Source: Verrucomicrobiia bacterium (GTDB taxonomy: Bacteria; Verrucomicrobiota; Verrucomicrobiia; Verrucomicrobiales; Akkermansiaceae). From it: 64,000 nucleotides of DNA. Positions 19,067 through 31,702 of the stretch are shown here, in pieces. The notes beneath the pieces are model-generated. The model had not been told where the DNA came from and did no database searches. It worked only from the letters and a program-made list of their open reading frames with translations. The position numbers were made by a program, and so were the translations under genes. The stretch's first letter is position 1. Each line of letters begins with the position of its first letter. The stretch lies in assembly GCA_030431475.1 (NCBI GenBank), contig JAUIJD010000014.1, forward strand, positions 1 through 64,000, given 5' to 3'.

Positions 19067-20386
19067 TCAGGGACCTTCCCCGTTGATTTCGGTGAGCGAC
19101 TCGGCGTCGAAGACACGGATGCGCTCGTGGCCGGACATGCCCGTGTGGGTCATCAGGCGGGACCCGTCGGGGGAGAGGATCGTGCGGTGGAGGAAGTCCG
19201 TGACGCGGAGGGAGGCGACCGGCTTCATCTTCTCGAGGCCGAGCCGGATGACGTAGTAGTCGTAGTGGTCCTGGAGGATGAAGGCGGAGTTGTCGAAGAC
19301 GAGCCACGCGGAGGAGGCCTCGGGACCGGTGATGACGGACTCGAGCTGGGCGCGGGATGAATGGATTCCGGCGGGCTTTCCGGTTTCGAGGTCGGTGAGG
19401 CGAAGGGTCGAGTCGTAGCCGAAGGTGAAGACGCCGCGATCATCGGAGGTGGGAAGCGCTTGGCTGGCTTCGACATCGTCGTGCCGCGGAAGGGCGAGAT
19501 CGAGTTCGAGGGATGGCACGCGGAGGACCCGGGTGGTGCCTCTCCCGGGCGTGACCAGGAGGCGGTCGCCCCGGCCGAGGAAGCGGGCCGAAACGCCGTT
19601 CTTGTCGGCGATGGGCTCGCCGACCGGGCGACACGTGGTCAGGTCCCAGAGTTGGAGTTTCCCGTCCGGACCGTTCTCTCCCGGCGAATCGAAGGTGGCG
19701 GCGTAGCGCCCGTCGTCGCTGACCGCCGCTCCGATGTGATAGGCGGACTCGTTGGGGTGGAGCATCGGGCGTCCCTGGCTTTTCCACTGGGCGTCGAACT
19801 TCCGGAGCGTTCCGGTGGGATCCAGCATGAGGATGGTCTTTCCGTCCGGGATGAACTGGATCCGGGTCGGGATCTCGGAGTCGCCGGAACCGGCGGGGAG
19901 CGGAATGCTGGCGACAAGCTGGCCGCTTTCGATCTCGAAGACGCGCCATGAGCCATCCTTGTCGAGAACGGCGACCTGCAGGCCGTCGGGGGTGAAGACG
20001 AAACCCGGCATCGGGCGGAGGTCGGGGTTCGCGTTCAGTGGTGGCGACACCGGCTCGCCGCTCTTGAAGTCGAAGACGCGTGCCCGGCCGGATTCGAAGC
20101 CGACCAGGATGCGCGCCGCGGCGGGGTCGACTCCGTAGTGGCCCTTGGCGTCCGGTTCTCCGAGTGGAACGGAGATCGGTTCCTCACTGTTGCCATCCCA
20201 GATGCCGATCGACCCGTCGCGCATCTGCACGACGATACGGGAGGCGTCGTCGTTGAAGTCGGCCCGCCAGACGCCCCGGAGCTCGCCCAGGTTCGGCGCT
20301 TCCTCCGCGGTCAGGGGGGGCGGCACGGCGGTAAGGACCGCGACCAGGCCCGCGATGGGAAGGGACGTGAATCGGCGGGAAATCAT
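19067..20386 (-). CDS. Secreted WD40-like beta-propeller protein
   Basis: A 439-aa exported protein with a signal peptide (1-27, LTA-EEA). The remainder is a series of degenerate WD40/propeller blades with repeated patterns such as DGSIGIWDGN, GRARVFDFKSG, GSWRVFEIESG, GKLQLWDLTT and STLRLTDLETG, about seven in all. No catalytic motif or lipid attachment site is seen. Periplasmic propellers of this kind serve as binding scaffolds, but no partner is identifiable. It stands alone between mgtE and the four-helix-bundle gene, with 246 bp of DNA upstream in which I recognise nothing. Confidence 0.78.
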   Translation of the reverse strand: MISRRFTSLPIAGLVAVLTAVPPPLTAEEAPNLGELRGVWRADFNDDASRIVVQMRDGSIGIWDGNSEEPISVPLGEPDAKGHYGVDPAAARILVGFESGRARVFDFKSGEPVSPPLNANPDLRPMPGFVFTPDGLQVAVLDKDGSWRVFEIESGQLVASIPLPAGSGDSEIPTRIQFIPDGKTILMLDPTGTLRKFDAQWKSQGRPMLHPNESAYHIGAAVSDDGRYAATFDSPGENGPDGKLQLWDLTTCRPVGEPIADKNGVSARFLGRGDRLLVTPGRGTTRVLRVPSLELDLALPRHDDVEASQALPTSDDRGVFTFGYDSTLRLTDLETGKPAGIHSSRAQLESVITGPEASSAWLVFDNSAFILQDHYDYYVIRLGLEKMKPVASLRVTDFLHRTILSPDGSRLMTHTGMSGHERIRVFDAESLTEINGEGP

Positions 20387-20632: not shown

Positions 20633-21193
20633 CTACGGGGTTGGGCCCCGCCGTGCCTTGATGCGGGCGCGGGTCATGCGTTCGCGGAGGCCGCCTTCCT
20701 TGAGGAAGTCGAGTTCGAGGCGACGGATCAGGTGGTCGAGGAGGCAGTTGGTCTGGTGGATGAGGCAGATGATGATGTTGGCGACGACGGCGGGTTCACG
20801 GGTTTCGAAATAGGTCCGATAGGTCTCATAGGACTCATTTTCCCGGCGGCCGAGATTCCTCACGAAGAGGGCTTCCCTGGAATTTTTGTCCCAGAGGGGG
20901 TGGTTGCCGGTGCGGAGGAAGTCCCGGTAGTCCTCCAACAGCTCTTCGAGGCTGGCACGGGCGACGTTCATGAGCTTGATCTCGGTTTCCTTGGAGGTGC
21001 CGGAGGCCTGGCTGCCTTCGAGGATGTTCTGCTTTCCAGAACGGGCCGCCTGGACCATCTGGTCGCGGGTGCGGGAGCGGCGATTGATGAAGCGGTCGCA
21101 GAAGAAGACGCTGGCATCGAAGACGATGCGGGATTTCCGGAAGCACTTGAGCTGGTCGTAGCCACCGTGAGCGGGGATGAAGCCCTCCTTCAT
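20633..21193 (-). CDS. Four-helix-bundle (suffix-type) protein
   Basis: A 186-aa soluble protein related to the S23/23S-rRNA-IVP-like four-helix bundles, with the longer C-terminal suffix region. Recognisable are GGYDQLKCFRKSRIVFDASV, the conserved RSRTRDQMVQAARSGKQNI and GSQASGTSKETE segments, and NVARASLEELLEDYRDFL. Related four-helix proteins act as accessory proteins of diversity-generating retroelements, but no reverse transcriptase is present here. Residues about 118-128 read ESYETYRTYFE. The DNA coding for this run matches the intergenic repeats at 21264, 21341 and 30071. The gene is followed by a small basic tail (RARIKARRGPTP). Function is unknown. Confidence 0.85.
   Translation of the reverse strand: MKEGFIPAHGGYDQLKCFRKSRIVFDASVFFCDRFINRRSRTRDQMVQAARSGKQNILEGSQASGTSKETEIKLMNVARASLEELLEDYRDFLRTGNHPLWDKNSREALFVRNLGRRENESYETYRTYFETREPAVVANIIICLIHQTNCLLDHLIRRLELDFLKEGGLRERMTRARIKARRGPTP
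20807..20842 (-). repeat. Genic copy of the ATAGGTC repeat
   Basis: This stretch inside the four-helix-bundle gene (GAAATAGGTCCGATAGGTCT and on) matches the intergenic copy at 30071-30106 at most positions. On the coding strand it reads as 9-bp units (TATGAGACC, TATCGGACC, TATTTC), that is Tyr-Glu-Thr, Tyr-Arg-Thr, Tyr-Phe. Confidence 0.7.
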
Positions 21194-21256: not shown

Positions 21257-21411
21257 CTGCTGGGGAATAGGTCCTATGGGTCCTATAAGACCTATGGGGG
21301 AAGAGCCCGCCAGTTCGAGGAAGGTGAGGCGGGCTGCTGGGGAATAGGTCCTATGGGTCCCACAAGACCTATGGGAGAAGAGCCCGCCAGTTCAGGAAGG
21401 AGAGGCGGGCT
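21257..21411. repeat. 77-bp tandem duplication with ATAGGTC repeat
   Basis: Two direct copies lie side by side, 21257-21333 and 21334-21411. Each contains one ATAGGTC repeat (21264-21300 and 21341-21376) followed by a hairpin with the 8-bp stem AGCCCGCC/GGCGGGCT (21304-21335 and 21381-21411). They fill the 241-bp gap between the four-helix-bundle gene and the 3-prime end of priA. With only two copies and no spacers, it is not a CRISPR array. Confidence 0.85.
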
Positions 21412-21434: not shown

Positions 21435-23747
21435 TCAGCTGAAGGAAAGTGCATCCATGTCGAAGACGACGGTCACGTCTTCCGGCAGCGTGGTTTTCTC
21501 AAGCACCTGCTGGACGTGCTTGGTGAGCGTGCGCCCTTTCGGCCCGCGGAGCATGAGCTGAAAACGGAACTGCCCGTGAGCCTTCACCAGGGGGCTGGGG
21601 AGAGGCTCGCCGAGTTCGATGCCCTTGGGGAGATCCTCCTTCAGCCGACGGTGCAGCGTCTGCAGCGTGAACTCGGCGCGGCGTTCGTGGGTGGAGCGGC
21701 TGGTGAGGACGGCGCAACGGGTGAAGGGGGGGAAGCCGAACTGGCGGCGCATTTCGAGCTCCTGATCGGCGAAGCCGTCGAAGTCGTGGTGACGCGCGAA
21801 CTGGATGCTCGGGCTGTGGGGTGTGAAGGTCTGGACGATGACCTCCCCCTCGAGCGACCCGCGGCCGGCGCGGCCGGCAACCTGGGTCATGAGCTGGAAG
21901 ACGCGCTCGCCGGCGCGGAAGTCGGGGACGTGCAGGCCGATGTCGGCATTGAGGATGCCGACCAGGGTGACGTTGGGGAAATGGAGCCCCTTGGCGATCA
22001 TCTGGGTGCCGATGAGGACGTCGATCTTCTTGGCGCGGAAGGCGTTGAGGAGGTCGCGCAGGGCGTTCTTCTTGCGCAGGGCGTCGGCATCGATGCGGGC
22101 GATGCGGGCAGCGGGGAAGACCTTGCGGAAGACGTCCTCGACCTTCTGGGTGCCGAAGCCCTGGAGGGCGATGCCGCGATCGGAGCACTCGGGGCATCTC
22201 CGCGGGACAATCGCCTGGTGGCCGCAGATGTGGCAGATCAGGCGGTCGTCGGTGCGGTGGTAGGTGAGCGCGAGCGCGCAGTGCGGGCAGGTGCAGACGT
22301 GGCCGCAGGACGGGCACTGGAGCGAGCGGGCGAAGCCGCGGCGGTTGAGGAAGAGGATGCTCTGTTCGTTCTTCTCGAGGCGGTCGGTGATGGCGTTGCG
22401 CAGGCGGTCGGAGAGGAAGGTGTCCTTCGACTTCTGCTTCTTCGACTCGAGGCGCATGTCGATGACGCGGATGAGCGGCAGACTCTGGTCGTCGACGCGC
22501 TTGGTCAGGCGCAGGAGCTGGTATTTTCCGTCGAGGGCGTTCTGCCATGACTCGAGGGAAGGAGTGGCGGAGCCGAGGACGACGGTGGCGCCTTCGAGGT
22601 GGCCGCGGAGCACGGCGACATCGCGTCCGTGGTAGCGGGGGACCTGGTCCTGCTTGTAGGAATTCTCGTGTTCCTCATCGACGAGGATGAGCCCGAGGTC
22701 GGGCAGCGGGGCGAAGACGGCGGAGCGGGCGCCGATGACGATGCGCGCCTTGCCCTTGCGGATGCGGTGCCATTCGTCGAAACGCTCGCCTTGGGAAAGG
22801 TGGGAGTGGAGGACCGCGACCTGGTCCTGGATGTCGGCGAAGCGGGCGCGGAAGCGGCGGACGGTTTGGGGGGTGAGGGAGATTTCGGGAACGAGGACGA
22901 GGACGGTCTTGCCGGCGTCGAGGACCTGGCGCGCGGCCTGGAGGTAGACCTCGGTCTTGCCCGAGCCGGTGACGCCGTGGAGGAGGAAGGGCCGCTGCGC
23001 GGCAGTGCCGAGTGCCGAGTGAGAAGTGGGAAGTGGTGAAGTTCGGTCCCGCGTTTGCGGGACCGGGGGGAGGGATGAAGGGGTTTCAAACCCCTTCTCC
23101 ATAGCCAGGATGGCGTCCAGAGCGGCTTGTTGCTCCTCCGTCAGCGGGAGGTCGGTGGTGGGGAGGAGTTCGTCGGAGTTGTCGGCCTCGGGATCGCGGC
23201 GGACCTCGAGGTTGATGAGTTTGACGAAGCCCTTTTTTTCGAGGCTTCTGACGCTGGTGGAGGCGGCGTTGCCGAGGTCGGTGAGGGCGAGGGTCCGGTC
23301 CGGGGCGTGGGCCAGGAGGGTGAGGATGGTGGCCTGCTTGGGGGCTCGCTTCTCGAGCTTCTCGAGCTCGTCGGCGTCGGGCTCGTTCTCGAGGACGGCG
23401 GCCTTGCGGGTCTTGGCGGACTTGTCCTCGGTGCGGACGGCTTCGGGGAGCAGGACGCGGACGACGCTCTCAATACTGCACCCGTAGTAATGGGTGATCC
23501 AGCGGGCGAGCTCGAGGAGCTTGGGGGTGACGAGAGGTTCGGGATCGGTGAGGGAGTCCAGCGGGCGCAGGGCGAAGCCGAGGTCGGCGGGATCGGCGTC
23601 GGAGACGGCGAGCACGGTGCCGGTGGAGCTGCGGTTGCGCAGCGGGACGCGGACGCGGCAGCCGGCCTGGACGGGGAGCCCGTCGGGGATGGCGTAGTCG
23701 AAGACGAGCTCGGAGGGGCCGTCGATGAGGACGCGGGCGGCGGGCAC
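21435..23747 (-). CDS. priA: Primosomal helicase PriA (N-prime)
   Basis: The replication-restart 3'-5' helicase, 770 aa, close to normal length. The N-terminal 3'-DNA-binding domain spans 1-105. The helicase core has Walker A (GVTGSGKTE, about 257-265), DEEH Walker B (about 356-359) and a motif III-like GSATPSLES. The zinc-binding insertion contains eight cysteines (CPSCG, CPHC, CHICG, CPECS; about 475-520). Helicase motifs V/VI (GTQMIAKGLHFPNV, QVAGRAGRG) and the C-terminal domain follow. A GTG start at 23747 is used because no ATG lies near the conserved N-terminus. Residues about 217-251, just before Walker A, are an extra segment encoded by repeat DNA (22995-23099); homologues have only a short linker there. 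The frame is intact, so the protein is probably functional. Confidence 0.95.
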   Translation of the reverse strand: MPAARVLIDGPSELVFDYAIPDGLPVQAGCRVRVPLRNRSSTGTVLAVSDADPADLGFALRPLDSLTDPEPLVTPKLLELARWITHYYGCSIESVVRVLLPEAVRTEDKSAKTRKAAVLENEPDADELEKLEKRAPKQATILTLLAHAPDRTLALTDLGNAASTSVRSLEKKGFVKLINLEVRRDPEADNSDELLPTTDLPLTEEQQAALDAILAMEKGFETPSSLPPVPQTRDRTSPLPTSHSALGTAAQRPFLLHGVTGSGKTEVYLQAARQVLDAGKTVLVLVPEISLTPQTVRRFRARFADIQDQVAVLHSHLSQGERFDEWHRIRKGKARIVIGARSAVFAPLPDLGLILVDEEHENSYKQDQVPRYHGRDVAVLRGHLEGATVVLGSATPSLESWQNALDGKYQLLRLTKRVDDQSLPLIRVIDMRLESKKQKSKDTFLSDRLRNAITDRLEKNEQSILFLNRRGFARSLQCPSCGHVCTCPHCALALTYHRTDDRLICHICGHQAIVPRRCPECSDRGIALQGFGTQKVEDVFRKVFPAARIARIDADALRKKNALRDLLNAFRAKKIDVLIGTQMIAKGLHFPNVTLVGILNADIGLHVPDFRAGERVFQLMTQVAGRAGRGSLEGEVIVQTFTPHSPSIQFARHHDFDGFADQELEMRRQFGFPPFTRCAVLTSRSTHERRAEFTLQTLHRRLKEDLPKGIELGEPLPSPLVKAHGQFRFQLMLRGPKGRTLTKHVQQVLEKTTLPEDVTVVFDMDALSFS
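22995..23099. repeat. REP-like cluster inserted in frame in priA
   Basis: About 105 bp (35 codons). It contains the perfect palindromes GGTCCCGC-GTTT-GCGGGACC (23045-23064) and AAGGGGTTTCAAACCCCTT (23078-23096), plus a CACT-rich simple repeat (about 23005-23040). The second palindrome belongs to the same family as the one after rsgA (62494-62523). The CACT-rich part resembles DNA just upstream of priA (23767-23807). Confidence 0.75.
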
Positions 23748-28687: not shown

Positions 28688-30052
<1,365 letters not shown>

Positions 30053-30070
30053 GGGCGGGCGGAGGTTCGG

Positions 30071-30106
30071 GAAATAGGTCCCATGGGTCTTATAGGACCT
30101 ATGGGG
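30071..30106. repeat. Intergenic ATAGGTC repeat between kinase and regulator
   Basis: A 36-bp copy that begins GAAATAGGTCCCATGGG. It contains the inverted pair ATAGGTCC/GGACCTAT and the inner palindrome CCCATGGG. It is the closest match to the copy inside the four-helix-bundle gene. Confidence 0.8.
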
Positions 30107-30130
30107 AAGGATCCGGAGGCATCTGGCGGT

Positions 30131-31294
30131 TCAATCAATATCAATGACGCTGCTCTCCAGGAGGCGGACGGGTTTCGGGCCGCGGGGGAGGTGGATGTGG
30201 ATGGAGGTGCCGACGTCGGGTTCGGATTCGATCTCGATCTCGCCGCCGTGTTCGCGGACGACGCGGCGGACGATGAGCAGGCCGAGGCCGGTGCCGGCCT
30301 GCTTGGTGGTGCGGTAGGGCTCGAAGAGCGAGCCCATCTGCTCGGGAGGAATGCCGGTGCCGTTGTCCTGGATGGAAATACGGCACTCGTAGTCGTTGTG
30401 CCCGGTCGTGATGCGGATCAGTCCCTCCGAGCCGCGGATGGCCTGGTAGGCGTTGCGGATGAGGTTGTAGAAGACCTGCTGGAACTGGGTCGCGTCGAGC
30501 TCGAGCTCGGGGAAGCCGGGTTCGAGGTCGAGTTCGACCTTGATGTCGCGGCTGGAGAGCTCGGGCTCGAGGAGCTTGAGGGTGTCGTGGAGGATCTGGT
30601 GAAGGTCGCAGGCCTCGCGGTCGGGCGTGGTCGGGCGGATCGCCTCGAGAAACTGGCGGAGGATGGTGTCGAGGCGCTGGATTTCGCGGCGGGCGGTGTC
30701 GACGTGCTCCTCGAGCGGTCCGCGGTCGCCGGGCGGGAGCTTGCGCAGCTTTCGCTCGATGAGCTGGAGATGGATGTCGAGCGAGTTGAGCGGGTTGCCG
30801 ATCTCGTGGGCGACGCCGGCGGCCAGCAGGGTAAGCGCGTTGAGGCGTTCGCTCTCAAGGTGGTCCTCGGCCTCACGGCGGGAGGCGGTCTGGTCGCGGA
30901 CCAGCATGACCCAGCCGAAGTTCCCGCCGCTCATGGGCGAGTCGATTGGGGAGAGGTAGAAATTGAGGTAGCGGTTCTCGGGGTAGAACACCTCGAGGTC
31001 GCGCGAGACGGTTTTGCCGGGTTTGGCGAGCGTGTCCCATTCGAGGCCGGGGACGCGTTGCTTGAGCGGCTGGCCGATGATCGCGTCGTCGAGGCCGAAG
31101 AAGCGCTGGGCCGCGCCGTTGATGAAGGTGACGAGGCCGTCCTCGTCCATCACGATGACGCCTTCGTGGAGCGCCTCGAAGACCTGCTCGAGGAAGCCCT
31201 TCTCCCGGATCAGGCGGGAAAGGAGCTGCTGGGCCTCGGCCGGGTCGATGCGGTCGAGGCGGGCGAGGAGCTTTTCGAGGAAGCCGGACTTCAT
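30131..31294 (-). CDS. PAS histidine kinase (NtrB-like)
   Basis: A soluble sensor kinase of 387 aa that is the likely partner of the NtrC-type regulator downstream. A PAS domain spans about 32-140 (VFEALHEGVIVMDEDGLVTF). The HisKA domain has His163 (GVAHEIGNPLNSLDIHL), and HATPase_c has NLIRNAYQAI, DNGTGIPP and GTGLGLLIVRR. There is no membrane segment, so it senses a cytoplasmic signal. The ATG at 31294 was chosen because residues upstream in the same open frame overlap the divergent cutA gene and look random. The 81-bp gap to cutA must hold both promoters. Confidence 0.93.
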   Translation of the reverse strand: MKSGFLEKLLARLDRIDPAEAQQLLSRLIREKGFLEQVFEALHEGVIVMDEDGLVTFINGAAQRFFGLDDAIIGQPLKQRVPGLEWDTLAKPGKTVSRDLEVFYPENRYLNFYLSPIDSPMSGGNFGWVMLVRDQTASRREAEDHLESERLNALTLLAAGVAHEIGNPLNSLDIHLQLIERKLRKLPPGDRGPLEEHVDTARREIQRLDTILRQFLEAIRPTTPDREACDLHQILHDTLKLLEPELSSRDIKVELDLEPGFPELELDATQFQQVFYNLIRNAYQAIRGSEGLIRITTGHNDYECRISIQDNGTGIPPEQMGSLFEPYRTTKQAGTGLGLLIVRRVVREHGGEIEIESEPDVGTSIHIHLPRGPKPVRLLESSVIDID

Positions 31295-31375
31295 GGGGAG
31301 ACGGAAGACTTCGAGACGGAAGACGGGTTCCGTTTCGAAGGTTGAGGGCGGAGCGAGAGTGGCTAGGAAGGGGGG

Positions 31376-31702
31376 ATGAAAGATGAAGTTTTCGTGGTTT
31401 TGTGCACCTTTCCGGATGAGGTGAAGGCGCGACAGATTGGCGCGCTGCTGGTGGAAAGGCAAGTGGCGGCCTGCGTGAACGTGGTGCCGGGGCTGCGTTC
31501 GATCTATCGCTGGCAGGGCACGGTGCACGACGACCCCGAGGTGCTGGCGGTGATCAAGACCACCCGGGCCGGCTATCCCAGACTGGAGAAGCTGCTTCTG
31601 GAAGCCCATCCCTACGACACGCCGGAGGTGCTGGCGCTATCTGTCGAGGCGGGATCGGAGAGCTATTTGAAGTGGGTCGCCGAGCAGTGCGGCTCGGCGT
31701 AG
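31376..31702 (+). CDS. cutA: Divalent-cation tolerance protein CutA
   Basis: A 108-aa protein of the CutA1 family, which folds as a trimer related to PII signalling proteins. The characteristic segments VVLCTFPDEVKARQIGALLV, RQVAACVNVVPGLRSIYRWQG, VLAVIKTTRAGYPRLEKLL and HPYDTPEVLALSVEAGSESYLKWV are all present, covering the whole family length. It is linked to copper or other divalent-cation tolerance in bacteria, but its biochemical role is not settled. It is transcribed alone, divergent from the kinase gene. Confidence 0.95.
   Translation: MKDEVFVVLCTFPDEVKARQIGALLVERQVAACVNVVPGLRSIYRWQGTVHDDPEVLAVIKTTRAGYPRLEKLLLEAHPYDTPEVLALSVEAGSESYLKWVAEQCGSA

Follow-up and report, generated by a model that had tools for sequence, protein, structure and literature searches.

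A four-helix-bundle suffix gene and its matching scattered repeats: a possible new kind of mobile element

The suffix gene and its repeats in the window

The 64,000-nucleotide stretch of DNA analysed here (the window; positions 1 to 64,000 of contig JAUIJD010000014.1 of the Verrucomicrobiia bacterium assembly GCA_030431475.1) contains a small gene for a four-helix-bundle protein that carries a suffix domain, called here the suffix gene, together with four copies of a 36-bp repeat, one of them inside the gene and three between genes (Table 1). That such a gene travels with dispersed repeats matching its own suggests a mobile element of a kind not yet described. The gene is flanked by protein-coding open reading frames (ORFs) at 19067-20386 and 21435-23747, that is, it lies outside any 23S rRNA gene.

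The repeat has a 9-bp period, with the unit TATRRGACC, and is in frame with the suffix ORF; on the minus strand its in-gene copy reads GAA AAT GAG TCC TAT GAG ACC TAT CGG ACC TAT TTC (E N E S Y E T Y R T Y F). The intergenic copies lie between predicted genes, keep the 9-bp period and run on the same strand as the in-gene copy. A previous sequence-only reading of this DNA had described the four copies, the units in phase with the codons and the persistence of the period outside the gene, and all of these observations hold. Since copies 1 and 2 lie within a single tandem duplication of ~77 bp, they represent one event, not two insertions; this duplication (window 21257-21410, upstream of the suffix gene) unites the repeat with a GCCCGCC/GGCGGGC stem. 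The sensor kinase and response regulator on either side of copy 3 were labelled by reading of the sequence, not by family search. With up to three mismatches, the double unit YATRGGACCYATRGGACC gives 13 matches in the window (overlaps included) against 0.26 expected, a number reached by none of 100 shuffles. Across the 4.73-Mb genome, the 22-bp pattern TATRRGACCYATRGGACCTATT gives, at the same tolerance, 12 matches at nine places, the in-gene copy included, and its reversed form gives none. Several of the copies outside the window fall within long mechanically called ORFs.

The window protein belongs to the four helix bundle suffix family (TIGR04258, 77.2 bits, cut-off 40), matches TIGR02436 weakly (27.3 bits, cut-off 24) and stays below the cut-off of PF05635, the S23/IVP family (25.1 against 33.8 bits). 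Its AlphaFold2 model (mean predicted local distance difference test score 90.5, from a 48-sequence alignment) has three long helices, a region with two short helices, the fourth long helix provided by the suffix, and a C-terminal helix. The residues encoded by the repeat form a predicted short helix (122-131) between helices 3 and 4. Among solved structures, this model comes nearest to 2gsc (Z 16.0) and to 2rld, a member of the S23 family (Z 13.8). The protein is basic, as are its relatives, whose median isoelectric point (pI) is 9.28 over 76 sequences.

Table 1. Features of the suffix gene and its repeat in the window (folding energies are predictions without shuffle control)
Feature	Position	Strand	Description
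Four-helix-bundle suffix protein gene	20633..21193	-	186 aa, pI 9.69; TIGR04258 and TIGR02436 profile matches
TIGR04258 suffix domain	20648..20794	-	Profile match; in the model, fourth long helix (residues 134-166) and C-terminal helix
In-frame 9-bp repeat copy	20807..20842	-	Codes for the helix 3-4 linker (ENESYETYRTYF)
Intergenic repeat copy 1	21264..21299	-	Upstream of the suffix gene; predicted 11-bp hairpin, -15.9 kcal/mol
Intergenic repeat copy 2	21341..21376	-	Upstream of the suffix gene, second unit of the tandem duplication; predicted 11-bp hairpin, -16.8 kcal/mol
Intergenic repeat copy 3	30071..30106	-	Gap between kinase-like and regulator-like ORFs; predicted 12-bp hairpin, -19.3 kcal/mol

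The repeat period follows the protein subfamily

TIGR04258 is present in 82 of 286 genomes of the class. We assembled 118 suffix loci with their flanks, comprising 108 of 138 matches across the class and 10 of 11 from another search; not included were additional g3 genus copies, the majority of the partial or weak matches, and the broken or cut loci L020, L141 and L176. The gene span in this set is an estimate that starts 400 bp ahead of the suffix domain and ends 90 bp past it, and arrays were located by a motif-free scan for segments repeating at a given lag (7 to 21). Of the period-9 segments, 38 fall in the estimated gene span, another 30 lie outside it but no more than 250 bp away, and the other 210 kb holds 4, corresponding to densities per 100 kb of 51, 52 and 1.9. 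In other words, 68 of the 72 arrays are in a suffix gene or at most 250 bp from one, a 27-fold higher density than beyond (binomial p = 1e-23, assuming independent arrays), and among the other lags only 18, a multiple of 9, clusters as 9 does. A further set was made up of the 80 best among at least 552 named loci, and its period-9 arrays are likewise distributed: 6 in the gene, 27 within 250 bp and 11 beyond (p = 9e-17). The hosts of this set include Verrucomicrobia, Lentisphaerae, Planctomycetes, Desulfobacterales, Desulfuromonadales, Bacteroidetes, Nitrospirae and Acidobacteria, among others, and the window unit TATAGGACC occurs in several of these phyla. That the repeat might be confined to the phylum of the window is ruled out by the arrays at named loci from many phyla. 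The link between gene and repeat that the sequence-only reading had proposed from a single locus is thus strongly supported, and is more general than was claimed.

A GTCC or GGAC core is found in 44 of 68 period-9 units, against 11.5% of shuffled units. The two flanks of suffix genes match each other in inverted and direct orientation in 13 and 18 of 77 cases, and in 15 and 24 of 115, with controls of 0/71 and 1/111. At two loci of genus g3 (L144, L151), a long tandem GGGGTGATA run, a 9-bp array without the GTCC core, stands right after the suffix domain.

By position, the helix 3-4 linker accounts for 22 of the 72 arrays (at 20 loci), the upstream edge for 18, and the C-terminus or the sequence past it for 24; another 4 lie barely within the N-terminal edge and 4 far upstream. 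The suffix helix contains none. The linker peptides match the unit of their own clade, as YxT, DPS/DPT or SIP repeats. Arrays of the window type occupy the linker in L260 (a Desulfobacterales chromosome), L265, L273 and L280, the last with two arrays in succession, and Z- and F-type linkers (clades described below) hold in-frame copies of their own, in line with the expectation of in-frame copies in homologues. The motif SYETYRxYxETRP is conserved in the protein subfamily of the window, and part of the in-gene match could therefore reflect conservation of the protein. We compared codon usage in 52 genes whose linker motif could be recognised: the window gene and 51 from the 80 named loci. Tyrosine is encoded by TAT and TAC in a ratio of 96:20 in the linker and 155:166 elsewhere (p = 4e-11); the bias persists in the 30 genes rich in GC at third codon positions (GC3), with 44:18 in the linker and 65:110 elsewhere (p = 6e-6), and the window gene itself has 3:0 and 0:2. 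This bias reveals a nucleotide-level signal beyond peptide conservation: the linker is, or recently was, a DNA repeat. The sequence-only reading had named homologous genes without the DNA match as evidence that would count against it, and this is what we see in part: L013-L015 encode YETYR mostly with TAC and CGC codons and have DNA repeats around the gene instead, and in such lineages mainly the peptide is left of the linker repeat.

Plain four-helix (S23/IVP) genes were first taken as a control for the suffix genes. TIGR02436 is present in 99 of 141 genomes, and the window genome (G000) alone has 14 plain four-helix family matches. Only one of 30 plain loci has a period-9 array, and that one is without the GTCC/GGAC core. 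What these loci have are period-7 arrays: 36 segments within 250 bp and 13 beyond (p = 2e-12), with 21 of the 30 loci having one within 250 bp and 24 having one anywhere in the locus, compared with 2 of the 118 suffix loci having one nearby. Thus the period follows the protein subfamily, 7 bp for plain genes and 9 bp for suffix genes. Moreover, at 22 of 29 testable loci (L313 has no second flank) one flank of the plain gene repeats the other in inverted orientation, and at 2 of 29 in direct orientation; windows 600-850 bp out at the same loci gave 0 of 28 for either orientation. Pairing flanks across loci was unusable as a control for these genes, the 99th percentile of mismatched pairs being 48.

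The same arrangement occurs on cyanobacterial plasmids (15 loci, from 15 of 30 plasmid records), where the four-helix gene stands between inverted heptamer arrays in 12 of 15 cases and between direct ones in 2, with 0 of 15 in the controls, and where the arrays enclose the four-helix ORF alone. An integrase or transposase gene lies directly beside the four-helix gene in three of these loci (L363, L368, L369). Three others (L361, L366, L372) are plain four-helix genes with heptamer-type arrays inside plasmid CRISPR-Cas operons, where their neighbours are cas6 and cas4, or cas10 and a cmr3-family gene. One plain four-helix protein compared with a phage collection gave no match.

Clades, units and insertion sites

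A protein tree was built from 109 of the 118 loci, nine short sequences being left out; genome clade labels were read from it, except for a few short genes (e.g. G131, G157, G182, G265), which were labelled from the domain sequence. Clade Z typically occurs with GTCSGATCN (DPS) units and clade F with GTCCATCNN (SIP) units; four loci of clade N have GTCCCTTTC-like units and two of clade L have GTCAATCCG units. Each of these clades is spread across several host families, and some genomes (e.g. G006) combine genes of several clades with their respective several units. The single clade Z member tested has a zinc ribbon of topoisomerase type.

Among 80 genomes, the DPS unit occurs in 18 of the 23 that have a Z gene and in 6 of the 57 that do not (163 against 13 matches, gene-adjacent copies included; p = 8e-9). 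Away from the gene, on another contig or at a distance, the figures are at least 10 of 23 against 6 of 57 (p = 0.002), and in one of the six DPS-positive genomes without a Z gene (G071) three of the six matches surround a partial suffix-domain match. For the SIP unit, 14 of 22 genomes with an F gene are positive, against 12 of 58 others (242 against 38 matches, gene-adjacent copies included; p = 5e-4), and the three highest counts (G165, G160, G270) are scattered over many contigs. The window unit is found in 12 of 32 genomes with a clade V gene and in 5 of 48 others (p = 0.005), and a simple correlation of presence and absence was discarded for it as weak, because G001, G009, G015, G017 and G028 carry the repeat without the gene. 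The genome-wide correlation called for by the sequence-only reading is therefore borne out for the DPS unit, also away from the gene, is unclear for the SIP unit and is weak for the unit of the window itself. That the unit follows the protein clade is partly shown, by inspection of the tree and, for one unit (DPS), genome-wide.

One of the genomes in which the window unit is commonest, the congener G001, has a multi-copy element (L032, L054-L073) that includes the TATAGGACC unit and is built with inverted arms; the L058 copy aligns with 16 of 20 other places in this genome over 237-368 bp at 81-89% identity.

Site comparisons gave occupied and empty forms for plain genes. At one Nostoc plasmid site, L371 and L383 carry a cassette and L380-L382 do not, the empty form being without an array. 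In L383 the word ATTCTAA stands at both ends of the cassette, and the empty sites of L380-L382 have one similar word, a pattern compatible with a 7-bp target duplication. At a second Nostoc site, L370 and L379 have a four-helix cassette, L377, L384 and L385 have none, and L378 has the array pair without an annotated gene. Picosynechococcus PCC 7002 lacks the cassette that stands between cas10 and cmr3 in PCC 7003. Plain genes are gained or lost along with their arrays, and the arrays occur without the gene.

For the window gene, we compared the neighbourhood of priA (this label and that of WD40 are based on reading of the sequence rather than on family searches). In 16 congeners the suffix gene is never next to priA, and no clean empty junction is available, because the sequence after priA differs among them; a suffix-gene remnant (81% identity) lies in G013 ~59 kb from its priA. 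The kinase/regulator gap that holds intergenic copy 3 (window 30053-30130) was located in 15 of 16 congeners, in which it is 30 to 496 bp long. In this gap the window unit is found in none of the 15 and in the window genome only. What the gap contains varies: G004 has no array; G008, which has a Z gene, has a DPS (Z-type) unit; G001 has a heptamer-like array; G017 has a GxxExxY gene (TIGR04256, PDDEXK_3) between inverted arrays with a GAC-containing unit; and G002 has an ORF that is similar by eye to the latter gene. The remaining congeners have other sequences there. The region (window 28900-31400, orthologues L321-L335) is an insertion hotspot of the genus, with different arrays, the GxxExxY gene and other ORFs.

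A possible minimal cassette and its alternatives

We think it probable, with only moderate confidence, that gene and repeats belong together in one family of minimal mobile cassettes, in which each protein recognises the array of its own cassette. Such a cassette would consist of a small four-helix-bundle gene bounded by short-unit arrays, with a 7-bp unit in inverted orientation for the plain S23/IVP genes and a 9-bp unit, mostly with a GTCC/GGAC core, for the suffix (TIGR04258) genes, the suffix subfamily being interrupted also at the helix 3-4 linker. Dispersed arrays without a gene, such as those at 21264, 21341 and 30071, would be non-autonomous derivatives. The basic four-helix protein may bind the array that belongs to it, which would probably be folded into a hairpin of single-stranded DNA or RNA, and may help to copy the array to new places with an enzyme taken from the host or from another element; a borrowed enzyme is proposed because the protein has no recognisable catalytic domain. 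The in-gene copy would stem from the insertion of an array into a linker that tolerated it, the array thereby coming to encode protein.

A bolder proposal, which we advance tentatively as possible rather than probable, is that proteins of the S23/IVP superfamily at large are the dedicated partners of intergenic 7- and 9-bp repeats. Each would read its own unit in a hairpin and would drive the copying of arrays, with or without the gene, not through a transposase of its own, perhaps by recruiting a reverse transcriptase or replication enzymes as Avd does; the in-gene linkers would be arrays that become protein. Avd works with a reverse transcriptase in diversity-generating retroelements.

Several results weigh against the cassette interpretation. 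(i) Family scans of the window protein found no catalytic domain and no transposase family. (ii) No empty site was obtained for the suffix gene in the 16 congeners compared at priA, the empty sites being those of plain genes only, and several of the 15 cyanobacterial loci (L364, L371, L373, L374) are related copies of one insertion. (iii) Arrays above threshold occur at just 45 of the 118 and 24 of the 80 suffix loci. (iv) The match between clade and unit was judged by inspection of the tree, and the genome counts ignore relatedness. (v) Gene-adjacent copies contribute part of the genome-wide signal: away from the gene, the SIP unit is present in 4 of 16 genomes with an F gene and in 12 of 58 others (p = 0.7), six F genomes without listed places being set aside; were all six positive, the figure would be 10 of 22 (p = 0.047). 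Moreover, SIP matches occur without an F gene, 10 each in the window genome and G226 and 5 each in G152 and G293. (vi) The window unit is commonest in genomes without the gene, with 123 matches in G001 and 32 in G015, and G028 has 25; these three genomes have no TIGR04258 match and no homologue of the window protein. G031, with a Z gene only, has 8 matches to the window unit. Such gene-less abundance had been named in advance as evidence against the pairing, and to this extent it was encountered; the gene-less G001 and G015 and the Z-only G031 require gene loss or mobilisation in trans. We read the gene-less abundance as gene loss or hit-and-run spread, and it counts against a strict pairing of gene and repeat. 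(vii) The kinship with retroelement proteins that the sequence-only reading had suggested comes down to a shared fold: the Avd structures 8ub8 and 4dwl match the window-protein model with Z 12.2 and 11.5, which cannot be separated from the background of helical bundles. Unrelated bundles score up to Z 11.5 (7tnl).

Other explanations have to be set against these cassettes. Replication slippage might create the arrays first, the four-helix cassettes being passengers that insert in or near them and do not cause their spread. This mechanism has already been proposed for heptamers (PMC4692102), two closely related strains differ mostly by insertions and deletions in 7-nt steps (PMC4679880), and arrays do exist in genomes without the gene. 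Yet slippage leaves unexplained the inverted arrays on both sides of plain genes, the difference between 7 and 9 bp in the two subfamilies, the link of clade Z to the DPS unit and the cassettes at sites whose empty form is array-free (L380-L382), and we consider it rather unlikely. The arrays might instead be regulatory sites, with the four-helix protein a DNA- or RNA-binding regulator of itself and of other genes through periodic operators or leader hairpins, and the gene mobile only in the usual sense. Two window copies do lie between the suffix gene and the next gene upstream, the protein is basic, and heptamers upstream of start codons have been proposed as translational sites (PMC4679880); against this, arrays also lie downstream of the gene and within it, and the orthologous gap in 15 congeners holds unrelated arrays, other ORFs or no array. 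Such variable contents make conserved operators unlikely, and we hold the regulatory explanation improbable.

Equally improbable, in our view, is that the repeats are the ends of non-autonomous transposons moved by an ordinary or REP-type tyrosine transposase encoded elsewhere, with the four-helix gene as cargo. REPINs act in this way (PMC3116915), the multi-copy inverted-arm element of G001 contains the unit, and a phage integrase or transposase directly adjoins the four-helix gene in 3 of the 15 cyanobacterial loci; the other 12, however, have no such neighbour, the arrays bound the four-helix ORF alone, and the unit goes with the four-helix subfamily across phyla. We give the least credence, very little indeed, to the disfavoured explanation that the in-gene match is a conserved peptide, SYETYRxY, merely resembling an unrelated intergenic repeat. 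The motif is conserved at the protein level, and L013-L015 encode it largely by codons unlike those of the repeat, as this explanation would have it; it does not account for the TAT bias of linker tyrosines relative to the rest of the same genes, GC3-rich genes included, for the different linker peptides of Z- and F-type genes, each encoded by its own unit, or for the two consecutive arrays in the linker of L280. Chance, or a pure peptide coincidence, is rejected on the basis of the reversed-pattern control, the shuffles and the codon bias.

The cassettes resemble several known systems. As with REPINs and RAYTs, a gene is paired with dispersed short hairpins of matching type, whose doublets are inverted (PMC3116915); inverted array pairs are seen, by coordinates, at several places in G160, and the intergenic window copies fold into predicted hairpins of 11-12 bp. 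In contrast to RAYTs, which are Y1 transposases, the window protein is a four-helix bundle: family scans placed it in four-helix families and recognised neither a transposase nor a nuclease domain, and the repeats are arrays of 7- or 9-bp units. The intervening sequences (IVS) of 23S rRNA genes consist of a small ORF between inverted repeats, as do the cassettes described here, and their IVP/S23 proteins appear to be of the same superfamily (PF05635, TIGR02436). Unlike the IVS, the cassettes that we examined adjoin protein-coding genes, and their arms are short tandem units. Since neither the transposase of the one system nor the 23S rRNA position of the other is found, we place the element in neither. 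The window-protein model resembles Avd in its four-helix fold, with scores no better than the background of helical bundles.

Among repeats, the closest parallels are the cyanobacterial short tandemly repeated repetitive (STRR) heptamers, the TAACTGA repeats of Beggiatoaceae and the GGGAATC/GGGGAYT heptamers, all of them 7-bp arrays between genes. GGGAACA and GTAGGGA heptamers flank four-helix genes in Nostoc plasmids; the unit of the window repeat, in contrast, is 9 bp. In a survey of 7006 prokaryote genomes, tandem heptamers came out as the commonest periodic repeats in intergenic DNA, with "no clear clue" to their function (PMC6344855). For TAACTGA, horizontal spread has been suspected through a mechanism that was not evident, and a phylogenetic distribution similar to those of XisH/XisI and of a hypothetical protein has been noted (PMC4679880). 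Term searches of the main texts of PMC4679880, PMC4692102 and PMC6344855 returned no mention of S23 or of a four-helix protein, and within the open-licence literature that was searched we found no naming of an association between four-helix genes and short repeats. The four-helix genes provide a first lead to a candidate protein for these common bacterial repeats of obscure role, so that the origin of the repeats becomes directly testable, and they offer a possible role for the S23/IVP family; if the protein does drive the spread, this would be a mobile element without a recognisable transposase. The GxxExxY family (TIGR04256, PDDEXK_3) gives a further parallel, with its gene between inverted arrays at the orthologous site in G017; it is a different protein, with a predicted nuclease fold, and was met in two genomes only, by eye in G002.
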